Below the pieces are notes generated by a model that ran no database searches, was not told the DNA's origin, and saw only the letters and a list, made by a program, of their open reading frames with translations. Positions 42,901 through 62,821 of a DNA stretch of 64,000 nt are shown in pieces. Both the position numbers and the translations under genes were made by a program. Every line of letters begins with the position of its first letter. The first letter of the stretch is position 1. Source of the stretch: a virus; the IMG/VR virus record IMGVR_UViG_3300030329_006012, positions 124,001-188,000 of that record; one strand, 5' to 3'.

Positions 42901-44145
42901 GAAATGAAAGACCTCATCGAAAGAGAGGAAGAACTTATAGATCACAAGATGATTGAAATCAACGGAAGTGTCGATGACGACGTAGACGCTCAACACTTTC
43001 ACGCAGAGTGTCATGTTGACTTTATTTTTGATCGCCCCGAAGGTAAGTACGCAAGCGCCGAAGTTGCAATGGGCCCAGAAGAATATGATATGCTGGCGGA
43101 GAAATTCACCACCGAAGCTGGTGAAGTTATTTATGTTGCTTCAAACAATCGGGACACTGGTATGGATGACAGTATGGAAGATTATATACAAATAGTCGAA
43201 ACTGACAGATCTATTAAAGTGGGCATTGCATCTTGGTATAGTGATTATGCTATGGATGGCGACGGTGTTGAAAGCGCCTTTGAAGGCGTAAAAGACTTCT
43301 TTGATAATGTTCGTTACGGAATTGACAGAAATTATGAAGACATCAAAGAGGGTATCCGTGCATTGCTCATTAGCTGGGAAATGCTCGACGGAACAAAGTA
43401 TGATAAAATACTTGATGCAGGAGAAGAAGCCCACGAGGAATTCGAGGAACAATTTAAACCACTCCAAATGACAATGGATGCAGACGACAGGGAAATAAGA
43501 ATTAATTTTACTTTCCCCAAAGGACCAGAAGCACAAGACGTCGTTGGCTATCAACTTGGCGTCGGAATGCAGAGGCTCAGAAGGTTCATATTTAGAATGG
43601 GCATCAAAGCGGCAGCAAACAAATTGGGTGATGAAACCAAGCAACCAACACAACTCGGACTTCCGGGAACTGACACCGAAGAACAAGAAACCGATGCAGA
43701 GAAATTAAACCAACTTGCTTGGCTCTTGAGCGCAAGCAACGCTTATCTGAAGGCGATGGATTCTGCAGCAGAAAACGTTTATGTTCGGATGGATGCCAAT
43801 GCTGGCCAACTCCTTGCTTGGAATGATATGTTCTTCGAAGGAATGAAGGCTGTTTCGCGGAACTACGAACTTGTGCAAAAGGCTCTATCGAAAGCACTGG
43901 AATTTGTGGTTATAGAAAATCCAGAAGACTTTCCAATGCCGGACAAGAAAGAAAAAGAATTAACTGAAATTATAGCTGACGAGGTTGTAAAAGCCATGAC
44001 AGAGATTGAGCCTTATCAAAAGAAGGCCAGAAAATGGCAAAAGCGAGCTTTGAAACTAAATATTAAAGGCGGCAATAAATATTTGACCAAGGGAATGAAG
44101 ATTGCTTCAACCAAATTGGGTAAGTCTGCCCCACCAGGAGGATGA
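36910..44145 (+). CDS. Giant modular virion/ejected protein with ART-like and WCTA modules
   Basis: 2411 aa. Tag-like segments EDRIYNKLVEK (residue 5), MENKIYERLVGEE (about 458) and LENRIYNKLTLNE (about 1024) mark module borders. Residues 345-445 have R (VWRCGS), S-x-T (TSVTWSEKYAYRF) and E-x-E (YDEKELLVRP), the order seen in ADP-ribosyltransferases such as T4 Alt. A module with GTKWCTAS, KTEWCTAAPG or GTDWCTAAPG followed by YF/FF-x-QYY occurs at about 542, 1249 and 1906; modules 2 and 3 share long flanks. Function of WCTA modules is unknown. Possibly a capsid-internal polyprotein cleaved on assembly. No signal peptide. Confidence 0.7.
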   Translation: MKNLEDRIYNKLVEKPNPLENHQYIQRVLGISLPLNESGATFISENMREEILEEHILYENFLRNLASQIRTGAKEVKQLFQAFYSMIADKTGGKIEVFTKYLSRLIKQLRKKLEGVLNKFAGDTLLEEKIKEKIQTLADMYDEAKGWKRVMLGSTVYLIVTYLVDKVEDAVENIKSSGNLKDELIDRIVNSDFAQSILKTLGNPEAWLGWIGPVVGGTKFVAKVLNPITSRVSHDPESLVSEETKKLTNERLDVGGQLSRLTQMMMASDACCDTESISGLWSESDPQYDMSFLLPEPEWRDWEEGDSYEEDKEEWIEKEMEKRRVADKGISMEEIYKSREELGELSRQGLVQDGIATRSPDGSGAVVKVWRCGSTKQMDDSDQPVTSVTWSEKYAYRFCQGKKKYTHHKHDHTEVDAYYVNLKDVLVSIPHVWDNAYDEKELLVRPQDLIPVEGYERKMENKIYERLVGEEKEINYKDHASLTFDQLSDAVRTAQDAKEKAEEKKMAKTVIPGEDYRKLDSVSPHFEVVVPMSTKASCIYGAGTKWCTASNEKYTKNYFSEYYNENGYTLYYVLPKKVDPELARPFDFLEKSPEEVEDFVGQFDDLFEGKKEDLKKKYPQFDLPAYGDDTELAGKLRGIDRMAQDDPSGKNKYLPWMVKQLDKKTPREEDGTISDVAADAWRSRIVRLIQRYHDLLPYIGKKPDLDKKKKEEKPQEQSRYDKIAVVMDPDDGINSVYDAEDNSVEITWLTDELLPSWGFERGDEADLVWSNLIDAIHDDLKDNPNTSHQVSDFWEAEADDAYFKHLSINSGTEASYGKLEVSFTCYVTLSVPDIDADWAKRYDNDTFRGEDRSRLMKYWDFVQQWLDVDALSERIKVLGMAPLREFPGARAHSSLPPIKEELSKSNDGTPHMVFSQSCTYRFKRNWQNDWRDDMEPSAKIRVQKAAIESVFRSLKDLDASIGTAFNTISAAAPDHNFEKPLRTEWLKELEKITEEWMEANPRGNPEEEAAASDAAVAQIMKQLNLENRIYNKLTLNEVTFEDAEKNLDGKKIRKMIKAYNYELDPEADPERGMGVALQRLKNTMRKFMPSDVADGDRGQSMLWVIRMLRTQEEFRNAVLDYSIGDDTDHHGNRTTTMAWNMLVQRISRNLEKFFQHKRHMKVNDLNKIDSEEMLNDVVDKAEEAIEAENERKLDSDAPRGTEFFEGNYQYDEDGEVARHPETRIPLFDTETGWVVAAAHNKGAACLLGKKTEWCTAAPGRDFFKQYYGGEDDPLFVVHTPEDERYQLAFGKGEFMDVDDVKMTGEAFERVHDRIKSAIEAKGLEDRFEKVMNYERVDIAAKIAEAVEEVKSEQRFPREVDISADVEDDYDSVGIHGYCTTKFEFALNGGHGDPLWSHRDEDEVVEELIEAFNDANGSFCVGNEDCEDPAENIEWGKSGDKGYQNFEISYSFFKSWYSYEDDDGTPELDDATYWMGEVRRTIDDDYEGIKSKIRGALLNLGVVKKNEIDELIDENDGEKIKGMFDNFEVYVLPQYSQANVYMRGDLPKEGWDLSRDGINVLERPTFGRKLWFSAIKAVEEVASRQLGLDFGIDEPDDEINTAHGMFDVPNGAALSINNEMIAVDTGKRNVNKEPIPMGIPRPRQWVMKVPIESDGSDGSVRTTTQFIQNLKIANRYPKLFRSAVEKLIKIEIDNLQRDEDNRNADAEKKYFMEPIDPERLMPGELAEGLERLEEVSFDDALKSVDKQGKKMAKGYNYDTGREPDHNLDKMMIAFARKVRRFIPRDIDDGQKALATLWLLRTIKKEPQMREDFFNDNAYLGGYEYNSLKNDLEKFFQYNRFMEPRDLNAVKNHHHLHKVTGQAQAAIEADAAKKLEADAEAGTDVLRDDAEWYIAIINNKGAACTLGKGTDWCTAAPGLNYFKQYYEEDDPLFFIESKDTEEKWQFHYGSRQFMDVNDHQVDRETFENLHHVLMSALEEKGYEERYPKVFEHEHKDYHQEMKDLIEREEELIDHKMIEINGSVDDDVDAQHFHAECHVDFIFDRPEGKYASAEVAMGPEEYDMLAEKFTTEAGEVIYVASNNRDTGMDDSMEDYIQIVETDRSIKVGIASWYSDYAMDGDGVESAFEGVKDFFDNVRYGIDRNYEDIKEGIRALLISWEMLDGTKYDKILDAGEEAHEEFEEQFKPLQMTMDADDREIRINFTFPKGPEAQDVVGYQLGVGMQRLRRFIFRMGIKAAANKLGDETKQPTQLGLPGTDTEEQETDAEKLNQLAWLLSASNAYLKAMDSAAENVYVRMDANAGQLLAWNDMFFEGMKAVSRNYELVQKALSKALEFVVIENPEDFPMPDKKEKELTEIIADEVVKAMTEIEPYQKKARKWQKRALKLNIKGGNKYLTKGMKIASTKLGKSAPPGG

Positions 44146-46493: not shown

Positions 46494-46496
46494 TTG

Positions 46497-49298
46497 ATGG
46501 GTGGCCTAGCAGGACATATGTCTCATTTATATGATAACCCTGATCTCACTTTCGGAGAGATAGAGGATATTTTTATTAAGGCGAGCTCTGGTGCCCTCGT
46601 TGGCACCGAGAAGACCGATGGTCAAAATATCTTCCTATCTTATTCTGTTAAAAACAAAAAAGCCGTGGCTGCACGGAATATAACTAATATCAAAAAAGGC
46701 GGCATGACCGCATCAGAACTGGCCGATAAGTTTGCTGGGCGAGGTAATCTGGAAAAATCTTTCACAGATTCCTTTGCCGCCTTTGAAAAGGCAGTCAACA
46801 TGTTTCCACTAGAGAAGCAAATAGATATTTTTGGCCCTGATGCAAACATATGGTACAATGCCGAAATTCAAGATCCTCGCACATCGAATGTAATTAATTA
46901 TGATGATAAATCCCTAACTATTCATCGAGTGGGCCATAAAGAGTTTGATAAGCAAAGCGGCAAACCACTAGATAAAGATGTTTCCGCCCACGCCGAACAA
47001 CTGGAAGATGCACTGGGCAATATACAATCTAACGCGGGTAGGGAAGAATATAAGGTTCAAGTAAACGCCTTAAAAAATTTGGACTCTCTGGGTAATGATG
47101 AGGCGCTAAATGTTGCCCTGTCTCGTCTCTTTAACCTGATGGAGTCAAATCATCTTACAAAATCAAACACAGTAATGGACTTTTTATCTAAAAGGGTTAA
47201 AGAAGTTATAAATAAGGTGATCCCGGAAGCGGATGATGATCTAAAACACGCGGTACTCGAAAGAATTTTCAAAGTAAAGGGCTCCAACCTAAGAAAGATT
47301 ATTAAAATGATCGACCCTGAAGACACCGCTCAGATCAAGAAAGTTCGAAACCTCATCGATAAGGCTGCCAAGGTAGCTACTGCTTCGATTTTCCCTCTAG
47401 AAGATATTGTTCACGACTTTTCCGTAGAAATGCTGAAGGGTTTAGAGTCCGCGTTTGTATTAGACAACGCTAAGGAAGTTAAAAGATTGAGAAGTGAAGT
47501 TGCCGAGGCGATAAAAGCAATCGAGAAGTCAAACAACGAAGAGGCTCTTGGGATTCTCGCAAAGCAAATGAAGAAGCTGAAAGATGTTGAGAATGTATCT
47601 ACTGCAGCTGAGGGTTTTGTTTTTGACTACGACGGTGTTTCTTATAAGTTTACTGGCAATTTTGCACCAGTTAATCAACTGCTTGGACTGTTTAGGTATG
47701 GCCGTGGCAACGTTCCAGCAATGCAAATTGACCTAGAAGAAGACTTGGGAGAGTCAGGGGTCAAGGCAGATGTAGCCTTTATTCCAGGTTCATTCAAGCC
47801 ACCACACAAAGGTCACTTAAAGTTGATGAAGGATTACCTAAAGTATGCCGACAGGGTTGAGGTGTTGATATCTGAGCCTAATATGGGAGGCGATAATGTC
47901 CGATGGATCAATCTGCCCCCAAGGAAAGAGGGTGATGCACCTTTGGAGCTAATGATTGATGCAGATACTGCGGCGGACTTGTTTGAACATTATATTGAGC
48001 TTGAAGGTCTCTCTGATAAAATAACCGTTCCAAGAATTTGGAATGGTGGCTCTAACAACCCAATACAATATATATTTGGAAAGATTTCTGACTGGGAAAG
48101 TCAAAAAAAGAATATGAATGTTGTCCTCGGCGTTAGCACAAAAGACGAGGGCGATGAGAATAGATTTAAGGATAATAAATCAAAATCACCATTTAAAGAT
48201 CAGGAGTATGTTAGAGTAAAGGATATTCCGCTGCCGCCTGACCCAACCAAACTTCGGGCGAATGATTTTAGAAAGTCAATTGCAAAGGCTTGGTCTACTG
48301 GCGATCTGGGCTCTATATCCAGATTCCTTCCTGAAAAATGGGTGGCTGCTCATGAAACACCGGCGAAGGCCGCGCTAGACTTTATAGATATGATTGGTGA
48401 CGCGCCGGTAAAAGAGAAGGAAATAAATGAAGCTTCATCTTGTGCGGGTGGTGCAATTCAGGGCTCCAGTGGCGGTCAAGAACTTGAAGACACTCTAATT
48501 AGAGAAGAGGACGAAGATATGAAAGAATACATGATTAGCAGAGAAGAATTTATAGAGGAGTTGTTCCTTCGGGAAAAAATAAGGGAAAAACTCACCAAAG
48601 CCCTTATCAACGAGAAAATAGAAGAGTCCAAGGTTCGTGATGCCATTAGGGCTATGATACAGGAAGAAGTCAAAGATGCACCTTACAAAAGCACAGGGAT
48701 CAATGAGTTGGAAACTTTGTTGAAAAAGATTATCCCCGTCATAGAACCCGACTATAAGAGCCTGACAACCGCATCAGAACAAAGAGAGTCTTTTCGGGCC
48801 CATATTTTAAACGCTGTGCAGAACTCTCTGTCGCCCACAGGCGCGTCGGGTGCCATGCATCGCGATGACATTGGTGTGTTGGATTTACCAAGCGAAGAGG
48901 ATTTCGGACTTGAAGAAGATGGGCCTAAAGAGGAAATAAATATTGCAGTTAGTGATGATAAATTTATTGACATCGACGAGAAGCCGCCAACAGAAGAGGA
49001 TGAGGAAGAGAAGGAATTTTCACTAGAAGGTGAAGAAGAGACCGGAAGAAATTTTGCTTCTATGACTTGGGGCCGCATTGAAACAAACATTGTTGACTCT
49101 TATCGCAAACTATCGAATAATAAAGATCGCGACTTGTTTTATGATTATCTAATCGCCAATTTGAAACTTTATTTTGATAAATTTGAAGATGAGCTTTCCT
49201 CCATCGTCGATGAACCAGAGAGTGACATCTATGATCAGGAGACTAATAAATCTCCAGAAGAAGACTTTGAACTAGGCGACGAAGAAGCAGCGATTTAA
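46497..49298 (+). CDS. KxDG ligase-like plus HxGH nucleotidyltransferase fusion
   Basis: 933 aa; ATG at 46497 (TTG at 46494 in frame) with AAGGAG upstream. Residues 1-400: MGGLAGHMSHLYDNP, then GTEKTDGQNIFLSY with the K-x-D-G of covalent nucleotidyltransferases (RNA/DNA ligases), later EGFVFDYDGVSYKFTG resembling ligase motifs IV-V. Residues 425-600: FIPGSFKPPHKGHLKLM, an HxGH cytidylyl/adenylyltransferase fold. Residues 650-933 are acidic and helical, likely disordered. I recall related genes in T4-like marine phages; the substrate is unknown (RNA repair or NAD/nucleotide metabolism possible). Confidence 0.78.
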   Translation: MGGLAGHMSHLYDNPDLTFGEIEDIFIKASSGALVGTEKTDGQNIFLSYSVKNKKAVAARNITNIKKGGMTASELADKFAGRGNLEKSFTDSFAAFEKAVNMFPLEKQIDIFGPDANIWYNAEIQDPRTSNVINYDDKSLTIHRVGHKEFDKQSGKPLDKDVSAHAEQLEDALGNIQSNAGREEYKVQVNALKNLDSLGNDEALNVALSRLFNLMESNHLTKSNTVMDFLSKRVKEVINKVIPEADDDLKHAVLERIFKVKGSNLRKIIKMIDPEDTAQIKKVRNLIDKAAKVATASIFPLEDIVHDFSVEMLKGLESAFVLDNAKEVKRLRSEVAEAIKAIEKSNNEEALGILAKQMKKLKDVENVSTAAEGFVFDYDGVSYKFTGNFAPVNQLLGLFRYGRGNVPAMQIDLEEDLGESGVKADVAFIPGSFKPPHKGHLKLMKDYLKYADRVEVLISEPNMGGDNVRWINLPPRKEGDAPLELMIDADTAADLFEHYIELEGLSDKITVPRIWNGGSNNPIQYIFGKISDWESQKKNMNVVLGVSTKDEGDENRFKDNKSKSPFKDQEYVRVKDIPLPPDPTKLRANDFRKSIAKAWSTGDLGSISRFLPEKWVAAHETPAKAALDFIDMIGDAPVKEKEINEASSCAGGAIQGSSGGQELEDTLIREEDEDMKEYMISREEFIEELFLREKIREKLTKALINEKIEESKVRDAIRAMIQEEVKDAPYKSTGINELETLLKKIIPVIEPDYKSLTTASEQRESFRAHILNAVQNSLSPTGASGAMHRDDIGVLDLPSEEDFGLEEDGPKEEINIAVSDDKFIDIDEKPPTEEDEEEKEFSLEGEEETGRNFASMTWGRIETNIVDSYRKLSNNKDRDLFYDYLIANLKLYFDKFEDELSSIVDEPESDIYDQETNKSPEEDFELGDEEAAI

Positions 49299-49435: not shown

Positions 49436-50653
49436 CTAGTTTATATGACTCACACGAGTGAACATTTGTGCCTTCCCCGTCGACTTCGAAAAATCTTCTT
49501 CTTCATCCAATTTTAAAACCTGACTTTGGTTGACCATGTGATGCATGTTCTCGTCTCTATATTCTCCGATAGTTATCTGAGGATAGAAATCTAGGTCATC
49601 AAAAAGGGGTCCGCTATTGGGCCCAAAGCCATAGGAATTGATTTCCCTAACTTCTCGAACGACCTTCAGGCGATCTCCTTGTACGGCACTGGGGGCTACT
49701 GCAGTTAAGTTCCCCACCCCGTAGATAAGTAAGATTTTAAGATCTGGATCTTTTCTTTTTGCACCTATCGCGTTAGCAACACAGTCCTTTGTCACTTGTC
49801 GGATGCTCGTGGCGAGAAGTATTCTCCATCTATCGCCATTAAAGACGTGGATCTCGCCCATAGTATCTTTATTGGGCTTTTCACCCCCCGATTTCCAGCC
49901 AATCGCATTGTTGCCTGTTTTGGCTAATGCGAACATAGAATCTTTATCACATGGCTTGCTCAACTTCCCTCCAGATCGAGATTGAAGGCCCTTCTTTAAC
50001 TCTCTCTCGATACGGTCCCGGCGCCACGCGCATTGGGGAAGTTGTGTCTTATACACATTCGCACAACTGGCAGCCCACTTGTTAATAGACTCCTGCGTGG
50101 ATAAGTCTGGCCGTGGAATTGGCACCTGCTCTCCGCCGATAACGCCGGCGGGTAACGAAGAAAAATATTTATCCTCCGAAACTAACAGCTGAATGTTTCT
50201 CTTCCTTGTTGAATCATCATGAGCCAGTCCGTCAATTGGGTGATCGTTGGAAATCTCTTTCTCCATTCGTTCGGCAAACCGTGGAGTATTGGTACTCTTC
50301 CATGTTGAAACAAAAATGCGCGTTACACCCAGATTTCCAAGGGCCCCCTTTCGATGTCGACCATCATCGTTTCTGTAACCCTCGACAACATTCCCTACTT
50401 TTATTTCAGACACACAAATAGGAACCTCGTTTATGGGCTCCCCAAGCGAGCTCGTCCTTCCAGAGTCCAATATTAAGACCTCTAAATTATTAACGTGATC
50501 TTTATACTGAGACTTTGTTCTTATCTGAGTCTCTTCGTCATTGTTCATTGTTGTTAGGATTTGGTTAAGTGGTACTTCGAAAAAATAATCACTTAAATTT
50601 GCTCCCTTTTTCTTGAGATCGGAGCAGATCTTTTTATATTCTTTTCTGTTCAT
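49436..50653 (-). CDS. ParB/sulfiredoxin-like fold protein (tentative)
   Basis: 405 aa. Start at the ATG at 50653 (AAAGG upstream), since the longer frame to 50749 runs into the promoter. Residues about 45-125 contain VLILDSGRT, VPICVSEIKVGNVVEGYRND and DGRHRKGALGNLGVTRIFV, resembling the GxxR-x2-A-hydrophobic-x-LG box of ParB-like nuclease/partition proteins. Residues 200-405 have no recognised domain. It is alone on the minus strand with its own promoter and terminator, which suggests a self-contained module, perhaps acquired by transfer. No partner ParA seen. Confidence 0.5.
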   Translation of the reverse strand: MNRKEYKKICSDLKKKGANLSDYFFEVPLNQILTTMNNDEETQIRTKSQYKDHVNNLEVLILDSGRTSSLGEPINEVPICVSEIKVGNVVEGYRNDDGRHRKGALGNLGVTRIFVSTWKSTNTPRFAERMEKEISNDHPIDGLAHDDSTRKRNIQLLVSEDKYFSSLPAGVIGGEQVPIPRPDLSTQESINKWAASCANVYKTQLPQCAWRRDRIERELKKGLQSRSGGKLSKPCDKDSMFALAKTGNNAIGWKSGGEKPNKDTMGEIHVFNGDRWRILLATSIRQVTKDCVANAIGAKRKDPDLKILLIYGVGNLTAVAPSAVQGDRLKVVREVREINSYGFGPNSGPLFDDLDFYPQITIGEYRDENMHHMVNQSQVLKLDEEEDFSKSTGKAQMFTRVSHIN

Positions 50654-50739
50654 CTTGTGAACCTTTCTGGCCAATGGTGGCCTGTTGATTCGGTTAGCTT
50701 TCGTACAACGAAAATTCACCTCGCAAAGCGCGTGATCCC

Positions 50740-50768
50740 ATTGTATCACTATTCCTAAAGGTTGTTAA
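50740..50768 (-). promoter_or_regulatory. Sigma70 promoter for the minus-strand gene
   Basis: Minus strand: TTAACA (50768-50763), 17-base spacer, TACAAT (50745-50740). Predicted start near 50733, giving an 80-base leader. Confidence 0.78.
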
Positions 50769-51427: not shown

Positions 51428-53782
51428 TTGTTCGGAAGTAAAAGTTCTAAAAAAGCAATAATACCGATTTTAACTTTAAAGAATACTGTATTTTTCCCAA
51501 ATACCGTAGTTCCGTTATTGGTAGGTAGAGAAAAGTCTCTAAAGCTGATCGACGACGTTATTAGGACAGGGACTGTGTTAGGGGTCATAGCCCAAAAGAG
51601 CGCCGAAACAGAAAACCCAGAAATAGAAGATCTGTATGGTGTCGGCACTTTAGCCAAGATTGTTAAATTCTCTAAAAATTCTGAAGGATATTATAATATA
51701 ATCATCGAAGGCTTATCAAGATTCGAGATAGAGGAGTTTAGAAATACTGAACCATACTTTACAGCAGAAATAAAAGAGCTTCCAGACACAGCTTCTTCAG
51801 AGCTCTCGGCCCATGAACTGCCAATTCTTTTTGAAACCCTCAGAGAAACGGCCTATGATATCTGCATGTCTTTGCCAGAACTCCCAACCAGTGTACGGGG
51901 ATTTATAGAGACGGTGAACGAGCCAGGAATGTTAGCAGATATTGTTGCCAGCAACCTTGGCCAAGATACCAAAGAAAAGCAATCAATATTGGAGACAATA
52001 GATGTCGCTGATCGGATGATGAGAGCGTTGGAGCTATTAGGCCGAAAGCACGAAATGCTCACACTTTCAGATAAAATAAATAACTCGGTCAAAGAAGAAA
52101 TTTCCAAAAATCAAAAAGAGTATTATCTTAGGCAACAGTTAAAAGCCATCAATAGCGAACTTGGCGAAACAGCCGAAGAGAACGAAGATCTTAATAACTT
52201 AAAAGAAAAGATGAAAACAATTGATCTACCAGAAGATGTTGTAAAGACCGTTACTAAAGAAATTAAGAAGATGCGAAATATGCAGCCAAGTCAGGCAGAA
52301 TATAATGTGGCTTTAAACTATGTCGACGCTCTCCTTGAATTTCCTTGGGATACCAAAACAAGAGACAGTCTAGACATAGAGAATGTTCAGAAACAATTGG
52401 ACGCAGATCATCATGGCCTTGAAAAAGTGAAGGAAAGAATTGTAGAATATTTAGCAGTTCGAAAATTAAAAGACAATATGGCCGGCCCAATCCTTTGCTT
52501 GCTGGGCCCACCAGGAGTTGGAAAAACATCTCTTGGGAAATCAATTGCTCATGCCCTTGGCAGGAAGCTGGAGAGAATCTCATTAGGAGGGGTATCCGAC
52601 GAGTCAGAGATCCGAGGCCATCGCCGAACCTACATCGGCGCCATGCCAGGAAAGATTGTCAAATCATTTACGAAATTACAAGTTAATAATCCCCTTATTT
52701 TACTCGACGAGATCGATAAAATGAGTAAAGACCACAAAGGAGATCCAGCTTCGGCAATGCTTGAAGTATTGGACCCAGAACAAAACAATAGTTTTATGGA
52801 TCACTATTTTGATGTTCCTGTCGATTTATCGGACACGCTATTTATTGCCACCGCTAACGACATAAGTACAATTCCTGGCCCACTAAGAGACCGCATGGAA
52901 GTCATAGAACTTTCGGGCTATACTTATGATGAGAAAGAAAATATTGCTAAAAAACATCTTATTCCAAAGCAGGTAAAGAAAAACGGGATTACAGAAAATA
53001 ATATCATTTTTAGAGACAAGGCCCTTACAAAGTTGATTCTTCAATATACTCGTGAAGCCGGCGTTCGGAGCCTAGAGAGGGAAATCGCCAAGGTGTGTCG
53101 CCAAGTCGCTGCAGAAGTAGCGAAGGGAGAGGAAAAGCCTGAAAATATAATTAAGATTATCAACAAAAAGAACTTGGAAGACTTCTCAGGGCCCACAAAG
53201 TTCGACATAGAGGCCGACATGCGAGCCCGTAATCCTGGCGTCGCAACCGGCTTAGCGTGGACAGCCGCCGGAGGAGATGTCCTCTACATAGAGGCAACTA
53301 AGATGGCTGGCAAGGGAAATTTATTGTTGACAGGGAAGATCGGGGATGTCATGTCCGAATCTGCCAAGACAGCCTTGAGTCTGATTAGGAGCAAGGCTAA
53401 GAAGCTGGGGATCGTAAAAGACGAGAAAGATAAGTTTTTAGAGGATGTAGACTTGCACATCCACTTCCCTGCAGGAGCAGTGCCAAAAGACGGCCCATCA
53501 GCCGGTATAACTATCAGCACAGCCCTTGTCTCTCTCTTGACGGACAGGAAAATTAGGATTGACACTGCAATGACAGGAGAAACAAGCCTCAGAGGATTGG
53601 TGCTTCCCGTCGGCGGCATTAAGGAAAAAGTAATAGCAGCCCACAGGCTTGGTATTAAAAGAATTATTCTTCCTCCGAAAAATGAGAAGGATATGAAAGA
53701 CATCCCAGAGAATATCAAAGAAGAAGTAGACTTCTTTTTTCCAGAGACTGTGGAAGAGGTTTTTGAATTGGCTCTAGAATAA
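51428..53782 (+). CDS. lon: Lon ATP-dependent protease
   Basis: 784 aa, TTG start with AGGAG six bases upstream. N-terminal substrate domain (PILTLKNTVFFPNTVVPLLV), coiled linker (NQKEYYLRQQLKAINSELGE), AAA+ module with Walker A LGPPGVGKTSLGKSI at about 358-372 and Walker B LILLDEIDKM at about 421, then the serine-lysine protease domain: catalytic Ser in KDGPSAGITIS (about 690) and Lys in GGIKEKVIAAHRLGIK. All active-site residues are intact and the length equals typical bacterial LonA. In a phage it may replace or compete with host Lon, degrade host regulators or help virion assembly. No phage-specific domain added. Confidence 0.96.
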   Translation: MFGSKSSKKAIIPILTLKNTVFFPNTVVPLLVGREKSLKLIDDVIRTGTVLGVIAQKSAETENPEIEDLYGVGTLAKIVKFSKNSEGYYNIIIEGLSRFEIEEFRNTEPYFTAEIKELPDTASSELSAHELPILFETLRETAYDICMSLPELPTSVRGFIETVNEPGMLADIVASNLGQDTKEKQSILETIDVADRMMRALELLGRKHEMLTLSDKINNSVKEEISKNQKEYYLRQQLKAINSELGETAEENEDLNNLKEKMKTIDLPEDVVKTVTKEIKKMRNMQPSQAEYNVALNYVDALLEFPWDTKTRDSLDIENVQKQLDADHHGLEKVKERIVEYLAVRKLKDNMAGPILCLLGPPGVGKTSLGKSIAHALGRKLERISLGGVSDESEIRGHRRTYIGAMPGKIVKSFTKLQVNNPLILLDEIDKMSKDHKGDPASAMLEVLDPEQNNSFMDHYFDVPVDLSDTLFIATANDISTIPGPLRDRMEVIELSGYTYDEKENIAKKHLIPKQVKKNGITENNIIFRDKALTKLILQYTREAGVRSLEREIAKVCRQVAAEVAKGEEKPENIIKIINKKNLEDFSGPTKFDIEADMRARNPGVATGLAWTAAGGDVLYIEATKMAGKGNLLLTGKIGDVMSESAKTALSLIRSKAKKLGIVKDEKDKFLEDVDLHIHFPAGAVPKDGPSAGITISTALVSLLTDRKIRIDTAMTGETSLRGLVLPVGGIKEKVIAAHRLGIKRIILPPKNEKDMKDIPENIKEEVDFFFPETVEEVFELALE

Positions 53783-53839: not shown

Positions 53840-56374
53840 ATGAAAAGAAAGCACTATTTCCACATCTTCGGGCCTGACATCATAGAAAACGAAGACGGTG
53901 AACTGGTTCTTATAGAAATGAACCACAATTGCTTTTTTCTAACTCCTTATGAATATTTTGAAGGAGTCAGGAATAATGTGAGCAGAGAGGCTCATTCTAG
54001 TTATTTTTCCAAAAAGGGCGCCCTCTCAATAATAAAACATGCACAAGAGAATAATTTAAAAAAAGTGGTAGTGTTTTGCAAAAAAAGACACTTTGCTACT
54101 AATGTTTACGATGACCTTTTAGAAATCAAAGAAATTCTTGCAAAAGAGGACATATCCTTTAGTGCAATTGGTGTGGATCCGCTAGAAGAAGTTCTTAGTG
54201 GGGAGATCGAATTTTCCCAATACAAAGAGAGCCAAAGGCTCATCAAGAGCATGAACGATGATGATACACTTTATATTTCCAATACCCCAATTGAAGGAGA
54301 GTTTGAGGATCTATGGAATACCCCGTATAACAAAGGTCAATTTGACAAGTTTTTAAGAAAAGAAGGTGCAATCAGAGTACCCTCCGCAACACCGCACTCG
54401 TTTGACGAAGCGTCAGAATATCCAAACTGCGTAATTAAGCCAGTCAACGAAGGGCAGGGTGACGGAGTAACTTTTTACAAATCCCCAGAGACGCCACTAC
54501 TTTTGAAAAACGAAACCATGCAAGGGTACGAAGTGCCAAAAAAAGCAGAGCACCTTTACACCTATGCAAGCGGATCAGTCACCCCGGTCAGCGGCTTTGA
54601 TACCAATCGAGCCACCGACATTCGCTCTAAGCTTGCTGTAGCTCCTGATGGAAGATGTTTTCCTCTCTTTACCTATAGGAAGTTTTCGCCCCACACGTTG
54701 CCACCAACTCTACCGAACGGCCACGTCCAACCGGAAGCTTTTTTAACAAACATATCTAAAGGAGGCTTCTATGGTTTTTGTAGTGAAGAGGAGGACAAGA
54801 AATTTTCAGAATTTGGCAAAAAGGCCGCATCCCTGTACTGCCAGTTTTTGAGAGAGTCTGATACTCCAAAACACATCTTGTGGACAGGTGGATATGATTC
54901 TACTTTTTATTTATTTTCGCAGGCCCTTAAAGGAGTGGTAAAGCCGATATATCTGTCCTCCATCGATGCAAGGGAGTCAGAGATCAGGGAGATCATTGCG
55001 ATGATAAGGCTGAGCCGCCTGTTTAAAAAAACATTCCCGGATTATGCCGAAAATATGTTAGATTTTGATATTGTAACATCAATAGAGGAGGACGCCGAAG
55101 TTGAATTCAAGTGCACCCGCATTGGCTACGGAACATCGTTTTCCAAAAGAATGGGGGTACAAAATTCGAGAATAGCTCATTTTGCAAAGTCCCACAGTCA
55201 CCCGCTGTATATGTGTGTGGAGAACGAACACACCTCAAGAATGAGGAAACTGATAATTGAGTATGTTTCGCCAACGGAAGAAGGCTTTGTAATAAAGCAG
55301 CGGGAAGATTTTGATGAGATGGGGAAAACTCTTGATATATTTGAGAACATTATTTTCCCAATATTACATTTAACAAAAGAAGACATGCTCCGCATATCTC
55401 ATAGGCTTGGCTTCCTCGACTTGATGAGGGAAACATGGACGTGCTGGTTCCCTCGAAAGGGTAGCCCGTGTGGAGAGTGTGTGATGTGCCACGAAAGAAT
55501 TTTGAAGCCGAAACAGAAGGTTGACAAATCACGACAACCTGTAGTGGTTAGTTATTTCACGAGAAACGGAGACTATCCAGAATTCGCAGAAAACCTCAAG
55601 AAACAACTTCGTGCTGCCGGCATTGATTACGAGATCCCGCTTCTTGTCCCCGCTCACGACAGAAGAACCACAATAAACCTAAGATGGAAGCTACTCAATG
55701 AGGCTATGGAGAAGTACAATAGACCACTTGTTTGGCTTGACATCGACAGTGACGTGGCCAAAGGGGACCAATTTATAAGATTCTACGAGAATTGTGCAGA
55801 TAATTTTGATTTTGTGGCAAGAGATAAAATCCATATGCCCCATATGTTTTTCCGAAACGATTCAGAGCTAAGAGAGTTTTCAGGATGGTCTGTTCCGATT
55901 GACAACAGGTGGTCAGGAACTCAACAATTTTACAATAACACCGCAGCCGGAAAAGAGATTTTGAAAAAGTGTCTTTCAATTCACGAATACGAGAAAAATC
56001 AAAATTGTTATGATGAACAGGTAATCACCCTAGCTCTCAGAAAGGTGCGCCAAAAATATACCGCACTAGGGTTGCGATGTGCAGTCACAACACTACCGCC
56101 AGAATTCATTGTCTGCCGCTCGTGGATGAAGAACGAACTGGAACACAAGGAACTTAAAAAACAAAAGATGGATTACGATAATCCTGCTGCAGTGGTAAAG
56201 TATATAAAGATAAACACTGCTGATGAAGATCGTGGATTGGGAATAGAGGAGGAGTACTATCATGCACCTTTTGTATTCGACCCCGAAGATGATTATGAAG
56301 CATCCTATATAGAAAAGAAACAGGGCCTTGCAGAGAACGAGGCAAGGCGCCTAAGTCGGGAGAACAAAAAATGA
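53840..56374 (+). CDS. ATP-grasp / QueC-like PP-loop / glycosyltransferase fusion
   Basis: 844 aa. Residues 1-110 unknown. Residues 165-340 look ATP-grasp: CVIKPVNEGQGDGVTFYKS (about 196) and FLTNISKGGFYGF (about 302). Residues 342-560 look QueC-like: PP-loop ILWTGGYDSTF (about 345) and Cys cluster TCW ... CGECVMCHER (533-555), the zinc motif of 7-cyano-7-deazaguanine synthase. Residues 565-790 look like a nucleotide-sugar transferase: VVSYFTRNGDYPEF and D-x-D in LVWLDIDSDV (about 632). Together they suggest carboxylate activation or ligation plus sugar transfer on one polypeptide. Product unknown. The stop overlaps the HAD gene. Confidence 0.68.
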   Translation: MKRKHYFHIFGPDIIENEDGELVLIEMNHNCFFLTPYEYFEGVRNNVSREAHSSYFSKKGALSIIKHAQENNLKKVVVFCKKRHFATNVYDDLLEIKEILAKEDISFSAIGVDPLEEVLSGEIEFSQYKESQRLIKSMNDDDTLYISNTPIEGEFEDLWNTPYNKGQFDKFLRKEGAIRVPSATPHSFDEASEYPNCVIKPVNEGQGDGVTFYKSPETPLLLKNETMQGYEVPKKAEHLYTYASGSVTPVSGFDTNRATDIRSKLAVAPDGRCFPLFTYRKFSPHTLPPTLPNGHVQPEAFLTNISKGGFYGFCSEEEDKKFSEFGKKAASLYCQFLRESDTPKHILWTGGYDSTFYLFSQALKGVVKPIYLSSIDARESEIREIIAMIRLSRLFKKTFPDYAENMLDFDIVTSIEEDAEVEFKCTRIGYGTSFSKRMGVQNSRIAHFAKSHSHPLYMCVENEHTSRMRKLIIEYVSPTEEGFVIKQREDFDEMGKTLDIFENIIFPILHLTKEDMLRISHRLGFLDLMRETWTCWFPRKGSPCGECVMCHERILKPKQKVDKSRQPVVVSYFTRNGDYPEFAENLKKQLRAAGIDYEIPLLVPAHDRRTTINLRWKLLNEAMEKYNRPLVWLDIDSDVAKGDQFIRFYENCADNFDFVARDKIHMPHMFFRNDSELREFSGWSVPIDNRWSGTQQFYNNTAAGKEILKKCLSIHEYEKNQNCYDEQVITLALRKVRQKYTALGLRCAVTTLPPEFIVCRSWMKNELEHKELKKQKMDYDNPAAVVKYIKINTADEDRGLGIEEEYYHAPFVFDPEDDYEASYIEKKQGLAENEARRLSRENKK

Positions 56375-56742
56375 AAGAAGTAAAAACATCCTTTAAAGAA
56401 AAGACCATCGCGATTGATTTCGATGGCGTTATTCACAGATATTCAAAAGGCTTCCAGGGCCTCGACAATGCTTACGATCCACCAATGCCAGGCGCTCTTG
56501 AGTCAATAAAGGAACTAAAAAAGCATGGGTATAGGTTAATTATCGTATCAAGCCGTCCCGTACCTCCCATTTTGGAGTGGCTGGATAAATATGAAATGAG
56601 CGAGTATTTTGACGAGGTTACGAATATAAAGCAGCCAGCCAGATACTATATTGATGATCACGCAATAAGGTTTGAAAAGGATATTTCAACAAACTGGGAA
56701 GATACAATGACTTTTATAAAAAAGAAGGAGAATTTAAAATGA
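56371..56742 (+). CDS. HAD-family phosphatase-like protein
   Basis: 123 aa. Motif I IAIDFDGVIH (D-x-D), motif II IVSSRPV and a later acidic motif YYIDDHAIRF: a minimal capless HAD hydrolase. Starts overlapping the previous stop. May dephosphorylate the sugar or nucleotide intermediate of the cluster. Confidence 0.82.
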   Translation: MKEVKTSFKEKTIAIDFDGVIHRYSKGFQGLDNAYDPPMPGALESIKELKKHGYRLIIVSSRPVPPILEWLDKYEMSEYFDEVTNIKQPARYYIDDHAIRFEKDISTNWEDTMTFIKKKENLK

Positions 56743-57131
56743 AAAGAGCAATGTTTATTGGCAGGTGGCAGCCGATGCATAACGGCCACAAATGGCTCAT
56801 TGGCCAGAAATTAAATAAAGGGGTTCCGACTCTGATCTGCGTAAGGGACATCCCGCCAGATGAAAAGAACCCATTCACCACAGAGCAGACTGTAGAGATG
56901 TTGGAGAAAGCATACGAGGACGACGATGTTGTGGTTATGGTGATACCTGACATTGAAAGCGTAAATTGGGGTCGTGGTGTAGGATATGAAACTAACGAAC
57001 ATAAGCCGCCTCAAGATATTGGCTTTATATCTGCAACTGACATTCGGAACAAAATATCCTCCGGAGACGACTCCTGGAAGGACAACGTGGACGAAAAGAT
57101 TCACGATCTGGTGGAGAAATATTTGAAATGA
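56739..57131 (+). CDS. HxGH nucleotidyltransferase (NadM/TagD-like)
   Basis: 130 aa. FIGRWQPMHNGHKWLIGQKL has the HxGH nucleotide-binding site; ISATDIRNKISSGD is the ISxTxxR type motif. Transfers an AMP or CMP onto a phosphate; NMN or a phosphorylated alcohol/sugar are candidates. Overlaps its neighbours by four bases each, so it belongs to the same operon. Confidence 0.85.
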   Translation: MKRAMFIGRWQPMHNGHKWLIGQKLNKGVPTLICVRDIPPDEKNPFTTEQTVEMLEKAYEDDDVVVMVIPDIESVNWGRGVGYETNEHKPPQDIGFISATDIRNKISSGDDSWKDNVDEKIHDLVEKYLK

Positions 57132-57730
57132 AAAAGAAGAGACTTTTTAACCCCAAGAGAGGGATTAACGCTAGTGAGGAATATGGATGCGTTTTTATAC
57201 ACGTCCCAAAGGCAGCCGGAAACTCAGTAAAGTCTATTTTTAAGATTAAGTCACATGCTCACAGGCCAGTATCGGAGCACGAACCTGAACTACTAGAAGA
57301 GAATTATGTTTTTTCTTTTGTCAGAAATCCGTGGGATAGGTTTGTGAGTGCCTACTTCTTTCTACGTGGCGGCGGAATGGGATGGTATGATAAAGAGTCT
57401 AAGAAAAAATATATTGACAAGTTCTCATCATTTGATGATTTTGTTAAAAATTCAAACTATGATGATCTGATGAAGAATCAAATCCATTTTAGGCCACAAT
57501 GTTATTATCTTGATGGGCCCGTGGATTTTCTGGGAAGATATGAAGATCTTCAGTCTGGAATTGACACAATTTGCGATCAACTAGAAATTCCAAGACAGCA
57601 GTTGCCCCATAAAAATAAATCTAACCACAAGGATTACACCAAATATTATAATGACGAAACAAGGAAAATTGTTGCTGAGAAATACGCTGACGATATCAAA
57701 GAGTTTGGATACAAGTTTGGAGGAGGCTGA
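57128..57730 (+). CDS. Sulfotransferase-like protein 1
   Basis: 200 aa. GCVFIHVPKAAGNSVKSIF is the 5'-phosphosulfate-binding P-loop of Sulfotransfer_2 family enzymes; SFVRNPWDRFVSAYFFL is the 3'-phosphate-binding R-N-P-x-x-R motif. The C-terminal YYNDETRKIVAEKYADDIK is also typical. Uses PAPS to sulfate a sugar hydroxyl. Cytosolic, no membrane segment. Confidence 0.85.
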   Translation: MKKKRLFNPKRGINASEEYGCVFIHVPKAAGNSVKSIFKIKSHAHRPVSEHEPELLEENYVFSFVRNPWDRFVSAYFFLRGGGMGWYDKESKKKYIDKFSSFDDFVKNSNYDDLMKNQIHFRPQCYYLDGPVDFLGRYEDLQSGIDTICDQLEIPRQQLPHKNKSNHKDYTKYYNDETRKIVAEKYADDIKEFGYKFGGG

Positions 57731-57732
57731 TT

Positions 57733-58407
57733 GTGAAAAAAATACTCTATGTTAGGATGCCAAGAACTGGCTCCACTTCCCTAGTGGAATATTGCAAGAG
57801 CACCAAGGATGCCAGAGCCCTTGGCGGCGGCCAGTGCGGGTTTTGGCTCCCCCAAAAATTGGGCCACAGCATCCACAAATCTACGAACGTCCACCCCAAC
57901 TTAGTCGAGTGTTGTCGATTGAAATTGGGAGACGAGAAGTTTTCTGAGTTTATCACGTTTTCTTCTGTGAGGAACCCATTCTCAAGGGCCGTGTCTTCTT
58001 GGAAACACTGGTCTTGGCAGAGACACGGAAACAAGCTTAGTTTTGAACAGTTCTGTGAAAGGTTAAAAAATAAAGATTATCCATCCAAGGTCGCCGAGTG
58101 GCATGCCGTCTCTCCATCAGATCACCTCTTCACCTCTAGCGGTGAAATGTTGGTTGACTATATTGTGAGGCTGGAGAATATACAGGAAGATTTTGAAAAG
58201 ATTTTAGCAGTTGCCGGCCATCCCAAGAGGGAAGTCCAGCACAGAAATCAGTCGGCCAAGAGCTATTGGAGTACCAAAGAATTACGCAAAAATGAACATT
58301 ATTCCACATACTATAACGACAACACAAGGAAAATCATAGGCGAAGTTTATAAGAGGGATATTGAGAGGTTTGGGTATGAATTTGAAGAAGCACCGGAGGA
58401 AGAATAA
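57733..58407 (+). CDS. Sulfotransferase-like protein 2
   Basis: 224 aa, GTG start with GGAGGCTGATT upstream. P-loop LYVRMPRTGSTSLVEYC and TFSSVRNPFSRAVSSWKHW with the R-N-P motif. The end (YYNDNTRKIIGEVYKRDIERFGYEF) parallels sulfotransferase 1, so the two are distant paralogues. It could act on a second position of the same acceptor. Overlaps the GT25 gene. Confidence 0.82.
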   Translation: MKKILYVRMPRTGSTSLVEYCKSTKDARALGGGQCGFWLPQKLGHSIHKSTNVHPNLVECCRLKLGDEKFSEFITFSSVRNPFSRAVSSWKHWSWQRHGNKLSFEQFCERLKNKDYPSKVAEWHAVSPSDHLFTSSGEMLVDYIVRLENIQEDFEKILAVAGHPKREVQHRNQSAKSYWSTKELRKNEHYSTYYNDNTRKIIGEVYKRDIERFGYEFEEAPEEE

Positions 58408-59153
58408 TGACTATTAGCAAGATTGTATATATTAACCTAGAGCATCGCACAGACAGAAAGGAGATACAAGAGGAGCAACTGAAAGCCTCTGGTATCCCAT
58501 ATGAAAGGTTTGATGCAATTTGCCCAACCTACGAGCAACTCGTCCCAGAGGATGGTGAATATCATGAGTTCTTCAAAAGATCAGTCCCCAGAATAAGAGA
58601 CTATATGCTTCGCGAAAACAAAGCTCGCGGACGTGGTGTCTTTGGTGTGTATCTATCTCACTATAAAATTTTACAACGTGCCCTTGAAGAAGGTTGGGGT
58701 GATTTTTTGATATTGGAGGATGACGCAGTTTTCGGCGAAGAAACAATATCGGATCTTGTGTCTGCAGCAAACAATGAAGAATATTCAGACTGGGATATAA
58801 TACGGGATGTCTGGGTTGCCAAAAGAGATATGGAACTCGAAAAGCTGCAACTCTCTTCACGCAAAGCATCCACCGTATATCTCAATGGAAAAGCAAAGGG
58901 TCTCTTTAGACACAGAAACTCAGATATACAATCTAAGTTCTATTCTGGGCCCCCACCTAATATTGTACGATGGGGTGGCGCCCACTTTCAGCTTATCCGA
59001 GCAAAGAGTTTGAAGAAGATTTTAGATTTTATGGATAAAGACCATGTATATAATATAGATTCGATATATTGCACCAATCAACTTAATGTATATTGGTCGA
59101 AATTTGGCCTAAGCGGATTTTTCGAGCTTGGCACTGATATTCCAAAAGATTGA
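58407..59153 (+). CDS. Glycosyltransferase family 25 (LPS-type)
   Basis: 248 aa. IVYINLEHRTDRKE at the N terminus, GVYLSHYKILQRALEEGWGDFLILEDDA with the E-D-D metal site, WGGAHFQLIRAKSLKKIL later. Matches GT25 enzymes that add galactose or similar residues to LPS cores. Context suggests it builds or finishes the acceptor of the sulfotransferases. Confidence 0.9.
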   Translation: MTISKIVYINLEHRTDRKEIQEEQLKASGIPYERFDAICPTYEQLVPEDGEYHEFFKRSVPRIRDYMLRENKARGRGVFGVYLSHYKILQRALEEGWGDFLILEDDAVFGEETISDLVSAANNEEYSDWDIIRDVWVAKRDMELEKLQLSSRKASTVYLNGKAKGLFRHRNSDIQSKFYSGPPPNIVRWGGAHFQLIRAKSLKKILDFMDKDHVYNIDSIYCTNQLNVYWSKFGLSGFFELGTDIPKD

Positions 59154-60232: not shown

Positions 60233-60259
60233 GACAAAGCCCTACCTATGTGCTATAAT
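60231..60259 (+). promoter_or_regulatory. Consensus sigma70 promoter for kamA
   Basis: TTGACA at 60231-60236, 17-base spacer, TATAAT at 60254-60259: perfect boxes and spacing. AGGAGGT lies eight bases before the ATG at 60278. Confidence 0.92.
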
Positions 60260-60277
60260 GTTGACAGGAGGTGTAGC

Positions 60278-61651
60278 ATGAGCCTAGTTTTATTAAATGA
60301 TAATCAACACCTGAAGCCTATTGTTTCTCCCGAAAGTTTGGAGTGGCGAAATCTGCGCCGTGATGCCTTCTGGCAGAACATTCCTGCTTGGCGGGAAGTA
60401 GATGAAGAAACTTTTTTAAATTATAAATGGCAAGAAAAGAATGCCATCACCAATCCGAAGAAGCTCATCGCTGCAGTGCAAGATATTGCATCTCCAGAAT
60501 TCATTGCCGACGTGGAAGCTGGTTTTGGCCACGCTCCAATGGCGGTTAGAATATCTCCTTATCTTCTGGGCCTCATAGACTGGGAAAACCCATATACCGA
60601 CCCCATCCGGCGACAATTCCTTCCTCTAGGCTCTCAGCTTGAACCAGACCACCCCATGTTGACGCTAGACTCCCTCCACGAGCAAGCAGACGCCCCTGTG
60701 GAGGGCTTAACTCATCGATACCCTGACAAGGCCCTGTTCCTCGCTCTCGACACCTGTCCGGTGTACTGTCGCTTCTGTACGCGCTCTTATGCGGTTGGCC
60801 TAGATACCGATACCGTTGAGAAGGTGAGCCTCAAAGCAAGTCAGGAGAGATGGGGTGCAGCTTTAAAATATATCTCAGAAAGAAAAGAAATTGAAGACGT
60901 TGTGATTAGTGGCGGAGATATGTATCGACTGAAGCCATCACAGGTTCTTGAACTAGGAAACGCTCTGCTTGACATTCCTCACATCCGACGATTTCGCTTT
61001 GCCACCAAGGGAATAGCAATTCAGCCGATGAAGATCCTCACGGACACCGATTGGACCGATGCAGTGACGAAGGTTTTTGAGCGAGGCCGAAAGATGCACA
61101 AGGATGTTGTCATTCACACGCACTTTAATACACCAAACGAAGTTACAGGAATTTCTCAGGATGCAATGAATTTATTGTTTGAAAGAGGTATCACTGTCAG
61201 AAACCAAGCAGTGCTTCAGGCAGGAGTGAACGATACCCCAGAACTTATGATGGACTTAATCAGGAAATTAGGATACATCAATGTGCAGCCTTATTATGTT
61301 TATGTTCACGACTTGGTTCAGGGAACCGAGGACTTGAGAACAACGGTTCAGACTTCTCTTGACTTGGAGAAGGAAGTGCGAGGAATGACTGCTGGATTTA
61401 ACATCCCTTTGTTTATTGTTGATACCCTCGGCGGCGGCGGAAAAAGAGACATCCACAGCTACGAGCATTACAATCGGGAGACTGGAATTTCTGTCTACAA
61501 AGCGCCAGCAGTAAAGCGAGATAAGTTGTTTACTTATTTGGATCCGCTCCGCACATTGTCGCCATCTGTTCGTGCCGATTGGCAAGACCCCAACAAAAGA
61601 GAACAAATGCTTGCCGCTGCATTCGAGGAAGCAAGGAAAAACTCAAAATAG
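60278..61651 (+). CDS. kamA: Lysine 2,3-aminomutase-like radical SAM enzyme
   Basis: 457 aa; start at the ATG at 60278 behind AGGAGGT, not the GTG-type start upstream. Radical-SAM cluster motif C-x3-C-x2-C in DTCPVYCRFCTRSYAVG near residue 160, the GGDMYRLK GGE-like loop near 212 and the PLP-related C-terminal region (FIVDTLGGGGKRDI). Converts L-lysine to beta-lysine using AdoMet, PLP and a [4Fe-4S] cluster; some relatives act on other amino acids. It is long enough to be complete. In a phage it is a surprising metabolic gene; a partner EpmA-type ligase was not seen. Confidence 0.9.
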   Translation: MSLVLLNDNQHLKPIVSPESLEWRNLRRDAFWQNIPAWREVDEETFLNYKWQEKNAITNPKKLIAAVQDIASPEFIADVEAGFGHAPMAVRISPYLLGLIDWENPYTDPIRRQFLPLGSQLEPDHPMLTLDSLHEQADAPVEGLTHRYPDKALFLALDTCPVYCRFCTRSYAVGLDTDTVEKVSLKASQERWGAALKYISERKEIEDVVISGGDMYRLKPSQVLELGNALLDIPHIRRFRFATKGIAIQPMKILTDTDWTDAVTKVFERGRKMHKDVVIHTHFNTPNEVTGISQDAMNLLFERGITVRNQAVLQAGVNDTPELMMDLIRKLGYINVQPYYVYVHDLVQGTEDLRTTVQTSLDLEKEVRGMTAGFNIPLFIVDTLGGGGKRDIHSYEHYNRETGISVYKAPAVKRDKLFTYLDPLRTLSPSVRADWQDPNKREQMLAAAFEEARKNSK

Positions 61652-61905: not shown

Positions 61906-62172
61906 ATGAAAAAGTTGCTTTTATTTAGTTTGCCTGCATTATTCGCATGCGGCACAGACGCACCGGTTCAGAATGAATCGTTCGCCGCCCAAGAGGTGTT
62001 TATTTCCCGCACAGCTGTATGTGAAAACTTAGATGCATCAGTAAGAGAGGACATGGATGCAGGAGAGTATGAGAAACTCTGCGGACATCCAAAGGTCTGT
62101 GAGGAGTTCGAGGCCGAAATGGTCTGTGAGGGAGAGTGGTGTGTTATTCATCGCTCGTGTCGGGTGAAGTAG
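61906..62172 (+). CDS. Small Cys-rich lipoprotein
   Basis: 88 aa. Signal KKLLLFSLPALFACGTD with a lipobox-like LFAC; the mature part has several cysteines (VCENL, KLCGHPKVCEEF, MVCEGEWCVIHRSC) likely in disulfide bonds in the periplasm. Its last 29 bases overlap the convergent minus-strand gene. Confidence 0.62.
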   Translation: MKKLLLFSLPALFACGTDAPVQNESFAAQEVFISRTAVCENLDASVREDMDAGEYEKLCGHPKVCEEFEAEMVCEGEWCVIHRSCRVK

Positions 62173-62821
62173 CCCTTATCTTGAGACCTAATTGGGATTG
62201 GATCTTTTTTTCAATAGAGTTTCGACTAACGCCTTCAGAATGATACCATATCCACTCAACAGTACTTTTTATTTCACTAATGTCTTCTTGAAGCATTAGT
62301 ATTTTGCTAGACAGCCATTCGGTTTCTTTGGTTGCATCTATTTTTATACTTATGCCAAGCTCATAGGCGATTTCTAGAAGTGCCATACCATCCCCTAGCT
62401 CTGCAGCATTGGCAGCTTCTTTATATAGTTCTGTGAGCACCTCTATCTCGTCTTCATCTTCATCTTTTAGTTTATCGGGATGGGTCTTAATCGCTATTTT
62501 CTTAAATAGGTCTCGAAGGTCTTTATCTTCTGGCAAGATTTCTTCGTGCTCCTCTCGGTTTAAGTCCCGCTCTTCCTCTTTTTCTCTCTCTATTTCATCG
62601 AAGCCTCTGTGTGATTCCGTAATCTTGTCGCTATCTGGCTCTACGATTTCTTGACGACCAGTTTCAAACCTCTTGTTGAAGTGGCCCATGCATTCTTCCA
62701 ATATTATTTCCGATTCCAAAAGTTCTGCAGATGTGGCTTGAAATTGTAGTCGCATCCTCTTGAGGGTTATCTCGTCCCTCTTTTTGCCTCGTGATTTTTT
62801 GTTTTTAATTTTTCGAACCAT
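62144..62821 (-). CDS. J-domain-like protein
   Basis: 225 aa. LRDLFKKIAIKTHPDKLKD (about residues 104-122) has the HPD tripeptide after an amphipathic helix, as in DnaJ domains; the next helix (VLTELYKEAANAAELG) follows. The N-terminal 100 residues are highly charged. Stimulates Hsp70 (DnaK) ATPase if functional, perhaps recruiting host DnaK. I recall similar proteins from large phages. Overlaps the lipoprotein gene tail to tail. Confidence 0.72.
   Translation of the reverse strand: MVRKIKNKKSRGKKRDEITLKRMRLQFQATSAELLESEIILEECMGHFNKRFETGRQEIVEPDSDKITESHRGFDEIEREKEEERDLNREEHEEILPEDKDLRDLFKKIAIKTHPDKLKDEDEDEIEVLTELYKEAANAAELGDGMALLEIAYELGISIKIDATKETEWLSSKILMLQEDISEIKSTVEWIWYHSEGVSRNSIEKKIQSQLGLKIRATSPDTSDE

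Follow-up and report, generated by a model that had tools for sequence, protein, structure and literature searches.

A phage protein combining a QueC-type PP-loop domain with predicted ATP-grasp and glycosyltransferase regions, a candidate surface-glycan tailoring enzyme

The locus and its carrier phage

The window is the whole stretch of DNA analysed here, 64,000 nucleotides (positions 124,001 to 188,000) of the virus record IMGVR_UViG_3300030329_006012, which is 190,225 bp long. The record carries a T4-type terminase, portal, major head protein, and UvsX; hence, the carrier is a tailed phage (T4-like, ~190 kb). The initial annotation had placed a three-domain enzyme at 53840-56374, and the open reading frame (ORF) as well as the quoted motifs (VIKPVNEGQGDGV, TNISKGG, WTGGYDST, TWTCWFPRKGSPCGECVMC, and LVWLDIDSDV) are present as claimed. 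The ORF starts with ATG, has no internal stops, and encodes 844 residues. No obvious Shine-Dalgarno sequence was found when the sequence upstream of the first ATG was inspected. The N-terminus is probably right as called, because the residues just after the ATG are conserved in a distant relative, G001. The gene is the first of a tight six-gene operon, whose members overlap or nearly touch, with ATGA overlaps at 56371 and 56739. It is followed by genes for a HAD phosphatase, a nucleotidyltransferase, two sulfotransferases, and a GT25 glycosyltransferase.

53840-56374, plus strand: multidomain ORF (844 residues; N-terminal residues conserved in the G001 relative)
56371-56742, plus strand: HAD phosphatase (Pfam Hydrolase, E 7.5e-7), starting inside the stop codon of the 844-residue gene (ATGA)
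56739-57131, plus strand: CTP_transf_like / NMN-adenylyltransferase-like nucleotidyltransferase (profile matches; ATGA overlap)
57128-57730, plus strand: sulfotransferase 1 (Sulfotransfer_2, E 1.3e-18; phrog_3347 galactose-3-O-sulfotransferase, E 6e-26)
57733-58407, plus strand: sulfotransferase 2 (Sulfotransfer_2, E 2e-16)
58407-59153, plus strand: GT25 glycosyltransferase (Glyco_transf_25, E 1e-14)

The HAD phosphatase also matches the capsule phosphatase profile EcbF-BcbF weakly, under the cut-off of that profile. A second glycan cluster of the same phage lies at 0.6-11 kb (G000:579-11442, L003). It contains GT4-type glycosyltransferases, GT2-like and DapA-like proteins, a KdsA/DAHP-synthase-family enzyme, a CMP-sugar-synthetase-like cytidylyltransferase (CTP transferase), a sulfotransferase-like protein, a PhyH oxygenase, and a HAD-like protein.

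Directly upstream of the 844-residue gene, the window has a complete Lon protease gene (51428-53782) matching the phage family phrog_15585. It also holds a 437-residue ORF on the strand opposite to most genes here (49436-50749, minus strand; a weak PHROG match and no Pfam match), a 934-residue ORF (46494-49298) with an RNA-ligase-like KTDGQN motif near its N-terminus and an NMN-adenylyltransferase-like middle part, and two very long ORFs of 2470 and 2411 residues (27936-35348 and 36910-44145). A KamA-family radical SAM aminomutase, which scores above the TIGR00238 cut-off and could make a beta-amino acid, is encoded at 60248-61651.

Domain organization of the 844-residue protein

The protein is divided into the following parts, all encoded on the plus strand.

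53870-53929, plus strand: predicted ATP-grasp terminal strands GPDIIENEDGELVLIEMNHN with the metal-site E-x-N (residues 11-30, at the N-terminus; from G001 profile matches and hhalign)
54011-54193, plus strand: putative Rossmann-like pre-ATP-grasp region (residues 58-118; modelled as alternating helix and strand, with a block pLDDT of about 43-73)
54332-54847, plus strand: predicted ATP-grasp core with K200 (VIKP), D260/R262, and LTNISKGG (residues 165-336; residues common with G001)
54857-55504, plus strand: QueC-type PP-loop ATP pyrophosphatase domain of the WTGG branch (residues 340-555; from Pfam QueC, phrog_1550, and AlphaFold)
54881-54904, plus strand: WTGGYDST pyrophosphate-binding loop (residues 348-355; near-invariant in 48 aligned sequences)
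55433-55489, plus strand: predicted zinc site C-x8-C-x2-C-x2-C, TWTCWFPRKGSPCGECVMC (residues 532-550; cysteines near-invariant in the 48 aligned sequences)
55541-56374, plus strand: predicted GT-A-like glycosyltransferase region (residues 568-844; from motifs)

Residues 340-555 are almost certainly a PP-loop domain, and the initial assignment of a PP-loop with a QueC zinc motif holds. The protein matches Pfam QueC (PF06508) with an E value of 9.1e-7 and 29 bits versus a curated cut-off of 22, the aligned part being residues 503-553 only. The domain also matches phrog_1550 in the PHROG search, and its AlphaFold model is mostly above pLDDT 90. Foldseek with the full-length model was dominated by low-confidence parts, so the PP-loop matches alone were used; the best folds among them are the N-type PP-loop enzymes LarE, TtuA, beta-lactam synthetase, and GMP synthetase, and viral QueC-like proteins are returned as well. 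Across the alignment, W-T-G-G-x-D-S-T, one Glu, one Lys, and four Cys are invariant or nearly so. Alignment to E. coli QueC equates the Glu with Glu42, the Lys with Lys165, and the cysteines with the zinc ligands C188/C197/C200/C203. The domain thus resembles QueC in its PP-loop fold, its GGxDS loop (here TGGYDS, not SGGxDS), the Glu and Lys, and the C(x)8CxxCxxC pattern. Unlike QueC, it is fused to other domains, lacks pathway partners, and falls far under the cut-off of the equivalog TIGR00364 (23.5 versus 150.3 bits); its PRK11106 score is 17.9 versus 378 bits. Neither the 844-residue protein nor its WTGG sub-family has the QueC substrate motifs YxQxH(xxE), VPxRN, or YPDC; of the first motif, the Glu alone persists. 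Residues in these three motifs matter for queuosine formation, as judged by mutation (PMC13329287). From the retention of the loop, Glu, Lys, and Cys and the loss of the three motifs, we infer that the domain probably still carries out ATP-dependent activation, though on a substrate other than the deazaguanine.

The initial annotation based its ATP-grasp-like region on VIKPVNEGQGDGV (residues 198-210) and TNISKGG (residues 303-309). The 844-residue protein in its native order has no ATP-grasp match in Pfam or PHROG, and the claim is supported through G001, a 540-residue protein with 33% identity over residues 174-557 (E 3e-58). The N-terminal region of G001 alone scores 25.8 bits with ATP-grasp_3, above the cut-off of 23.2, and its residues 129-192 correspond to positions 2-63 of the 160 in the profile. 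At 28-33% identity, the two proteins conserve N-terminal and ATP-grasp residues, and the K-P loop lysine K200 and the metal-site (E-x-N) residues E26 and N28 are identical. These similarities make an ATP-grasp fold very likely. Overlooked by the initial annotation was the terminal D...E-x-N hairpin of the predicted ATP-grasp domain at residues 11-30, opposite to the end where it would be expected. The corresponding part of G001 matches C-terminal profile segments, namely positions 144-173 of 188 in RimK (residues 3-32) and 235-260 of 278 in ATPgrasp_ST (residues 6-30). In hhalign, residues 4-30 of the two proteins align to the end of the ATP-grasp profile A8. Hence, the segment order appears reversed in G001, with N-terminal residues matching the C-terminal profile segment. 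In neither protein do E-x-N-like strands follow TN[IL]SKG ahead of the PP-loop domain.

Purely to probe the order of segments, we then moved the N-terminal 50 residues (38 in G001) behind the ATP-grasp core. The rearranged 844-residue protein gave its first ATP-grasp match (YheCD, E 0.005, under the cut-off), and the RimK score of G001 rose from 18.6 to 21.5 bits, above the cut-off; these gains are modest. With hhalign, the permuted order matched 155 instead of 27 columns, the score being unraised (31.5 versus 31.6). AlphaFold models the ATP-grasp region mostly below pLDDT 50 in the 844-residue protein and at 36 in G001, and the case for permutation thus comes from sequence profiles. Searches of PDB sequences with the N-terminal alignment gave no match in either order, scans with the N-terminal region of the 844-residue protein returned G001 as the sole relative, and an ATP-grasp DNA pattern search gave no match. 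On balance, the profiles argue for a circularly permuted ATP-grasp domain in both proteins, which we consider fairly likely. The domain shares the K-P and E-x-N motifs with ATPgrasp_ST/TupA/RimK-like ligases, whose profiles match G001 and which also adjoin WTGG proteins in bacteria, and it differs from them in this apparent permutation. Both phages with the apparently permuted domain encode J-domain-like proteins with a common THPDKLKDEDE motif (window 62144-62821 and L069:9334-9906, both minus strand), in G001 directly upstream of the ATP-grasp gene.

The C-terminal region displays a GT-A-like pattern consisting of VVVSYFTRNGDY, LVWLDIDSDV, SGTQQFYNNTAAG, and DEQVITLAL. The D-x-D motif that the initial annotation relied on follows a hydrophobic strand (LVWLDIDSDV, residues 630-639, 55727-55756); it is a short motif and not strong alone. 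Residues 568-844 have no significant match in Pfam, PHROG, NCBIfam, PDB sequences, or phage or plasmid records, and no glycosyltransferase family profile matches them at E <= 1. Searches of phage and plasmid records and two IMG/VR scans with the whole protein or this region returned no homologues. The structure prediction proposed as a check yields the PP-loop fold at pLDDT mostly above 90, and the ATP-grasp and glycosyltransferase-like regions at low confidence. The motif pattern nonetheless suggests glycosyltransferase activity, to which we lean. Pairing of this kind is supported by L050, a phage protein of 719 residues in which a GT2-like domain lies C-terminal to the PP-loop domain (Glycos_transf_2, E 1e-4, slightly short of the cut-off).

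The WTGG branch and its neighborhoods

Phage relatives were collected by a search for the motif WTGG[FYW]D[ST]T, and their alignment was then used to scan 84,980 species genomes. The scan yielded 234 relatives of the WTGG[FYW]DST branch, 80 of which were kept. Most relatives read out are stand-alone proteins of 220-290 residues from many phyla, and PF06508 matches 27 of the 29 family members at E <= 0.01. The text of the 2026 survey of the QueC family does not describe this branch among its clusters (PMC13329287). Co-directional neighbors in bacteria include ATP-grasps of TupA, ST, YheCD, and TTL types, GT4 glycosyltransferases, Wzx/Wzy-type proteins, and PEP mutase. Among the second and third neighbors, the raw counts are 11/77 for glycosyltransferase group 1, 3 for TupA ATP-grasp, and 3 for Stealth, and polysaccharide synthases also occur. 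Two operons have the orders GNAT-WTGG-ATPgrasp_ST (L119) and THDPS-type acyltransferase-WTGG-ATPgrasp_ST (L096). At some bacterial loci, such as L102 and L082, no glycan genes adjoin the WTGG gene. Taken together, the neighborhoods point to a branch tied to surface polysaccharides, often in such loci beside ATP-grasp and glycosyltransferase genes.

The initial annotation knew of no enzyme with this domain order. The full three-part combination was indeed not seen elsewhere, but partial pairs exist: ATP-grasp with PP-loop in at least two other phage lineages, and PP-loop with glycosyltransferase in another. G002/G003 are also fusions of PP-loop and ATP-grasp domains, with the ATP-grasp in the usual order, and are encoded directly after UDP-glucose dehydrogenase. 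The three ATP-grasp-fused PP-loop domains form one clade (support 95/88), and the 844-residue protein groups with G001 (99/89). A further phage fusion joins the PP-loop to a GNAT domain, which Pfam detects in L015. An extra region ahead of the WTGG PP-loop is present in the phage proteins L015, L023, L024, L027, L030, L032, L034, L037, L051, L054, and L064; Pfam detected no GNAT domain in that of L023. The apparent N-terminal extensions of L081, L104, L124, and L134 were left out, as they were taken for open frames that run on too far in GC-rich DNA.

Proposed function and alternatives

We propose, with a probability of about 0.55, that the 844-residue protein is a surface-glycan tailoring enzyme that first forms an amide on a sugar-acid carboxylate, or on a related substrate, and next attaches a sugar. 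The three-part architecture with an amide-forming, sugar-linked product, as initially suggested, remains the best reading, and the option of a surface modification is favored by the operon, by the other glycan genes of the phage, and by the neighborhoods in bacteria. A role in glycan synthesis is likely; amidation of a sugar acid is the more tentative part, at slightly less than even odds. We infer the reaction chemistry entirely from fold and context. The ATP-grasp and the QueC-like PP-loop would be two ATP-dependent acyl-activating sites (acyl phosphate and acyl-adenylate) forming amide-type bonds. The most likely target would be a sugar-acid carboxylate, that of either a uronic acid or an ulosonic acid (for example, Kdo), or else the amine that becomes coupled to it. 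A carboxylate-bearing sugar is favored as substrate because of the family neighbors, the adjacency to UDP-glucose dehydrogenase, and the KdsA-family and cytidylyltransferase genes. The C-terminal GT-A-type domain would then attach a sugar, either directly to the modified residue or beside it. Supply and decoration of the remaining glycan, which the phage may place on the host surface or its own particles, would fall to the HAD phosphatase, nucleotidyltransferase, sulfotransferases, and GT25 of the operon. No glutaminase partner is evident.

An amidoligase joined to a glycosyltransferase is known biochemically, and also bears on the claimed uniqueness of the architecture. In Cj1438 of Campylobacter jejuni, glucuronic acid is amidated by a TupA-like ATP-grasp domain before a GT2 domain lengthens the chain (PMC11800379). 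By description, Cj1438 thus has glycosyltransferase and ATP-grasp domains on one polypeptide, as predicted for the 844-residue protein, and glycosylation comes after amidation of a sugar acid. Cj1438 differs in that its glycosyltransferase is N-terminal, its ATP-grasp is C-terminal, and it has no PP-loop domain. It is the best biochemical precedent, and the 844-residue protein may be comparable to it with an added QueC-like domain.

N-sugar amidotransferases of WbpG/PseA type make amidines, and the PP-loop site could instead use ammonia to convert an N-acylated amino sugar to an amidine at its N-acyl group, with the ATP-grasp attaching an amino acid to that sugar. The protein would then still act on glycans, but through another type of bond. 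WbpG and PseA are likewise PP-loop enzymes of surface polysaccharide synthesis; WbpG, which acts in O-antigen synthesis, belongs to the same Pfam family (PMC13329287), and the glycan context of the WTGG branch fits equally. However, both the loop and the cysteine signature differ, being SGGxDSxY and CxxC(x)6CxC in the WbpG type (PMC13329287) versus TGGxDST and C(x)8CxxCxxC in the 844-residue protein, and we consider this reaction unlikely. Conjugation to protein is quite unlikely: the enzyme would place an acyl or aminoacyl group on a phage or host protein, as Cap9/QatC or R2K ATP-grasps do, and the third domain would glycosylate it. Members of the QueC family are able to conjugate to the N-termini of proteins (PMC13279940, PMC11996544), predicted protein-modifying ATP-grasps are carried by jumbo phages (PMC7824862), and a profile search of the PDB returned Cap9 weakly (E 0.086). 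Cap9 and QatC have carboxylate-activating domains of the QueC superfamily as well, but they act on protein substrates and reside in defense operons, whereas the operon and family context here is that of glycans. As the 844-residue protein has no PADLOC match, a defense role was dropped; no defense-type neighbors were seen either.

A nucleobase or tRNA product, the other option raised initially, would make the protein a sugar-linked deazaguanine (preQ0-type) enzyme. The Pfam QueC score is above its cut-off, and the genome has a second QueC-like gene. This addition to the initial list of preQ0 genes (G000:54364-54996, L002:1447-2079) encodes a 210-residue PP-loop protein with a GTG start, an SGGLDS loop, and CGECRPC; it lies downstream of an SbcC-like gene and matches the QueC and QatC profiles weakly. 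Otherwise, the claim that no other preQ0 genes are visible agrees with profile searches of the 190,225-bp record, which gave no match to FolE (PF01227), QueD (PF01242), or TGT. QueE was not found either, the sole radical SAM match in the record being the KamA-family gene. Every control search gave matches in known genomes; precursors could come from a host, and the record may not be complete. A deazaguanine role is unlikely because these four genes are absent from the record, evidence that is strong, not absolute, and with the QueC substrate motifs also missing we regard it as very improbable. The gene could also be decayed or chimeric without an integrated function, for example a dead ATP-grasp remnant joined to a glycosyltransferase. 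The lack of an obvious ribosome-binding site, the unusual ATP-grasp order, and a glycosyltransferase part found in this phage only would fit, but 2.5 kb of open frame with tight operon overlaps and the conservation with G001 noted above render decay improbable.

To return to the tailoring enzyme, a circularly permuted ATP-grasp ligase and the PP-loop site might act in sequence within one chain to form a new sugar-amide, amidine, or nitrile linkage capped by the fused glycosyltransferase. This extension is doubtful; if true, it would give phage-made glycans a chemistry not described before. The apparent circular permutation of the ATP-grasp domain, common to two divergent phages, is structurally unusual and can be tested. 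More broadly, the analysis points to a widespread WTGG[FYW]DST branch of the QueC superfamily, and its repeated fusions in phages with ATP-grasp, GNAT, and glycosyltransferase domains suggest the pairing partners directly.
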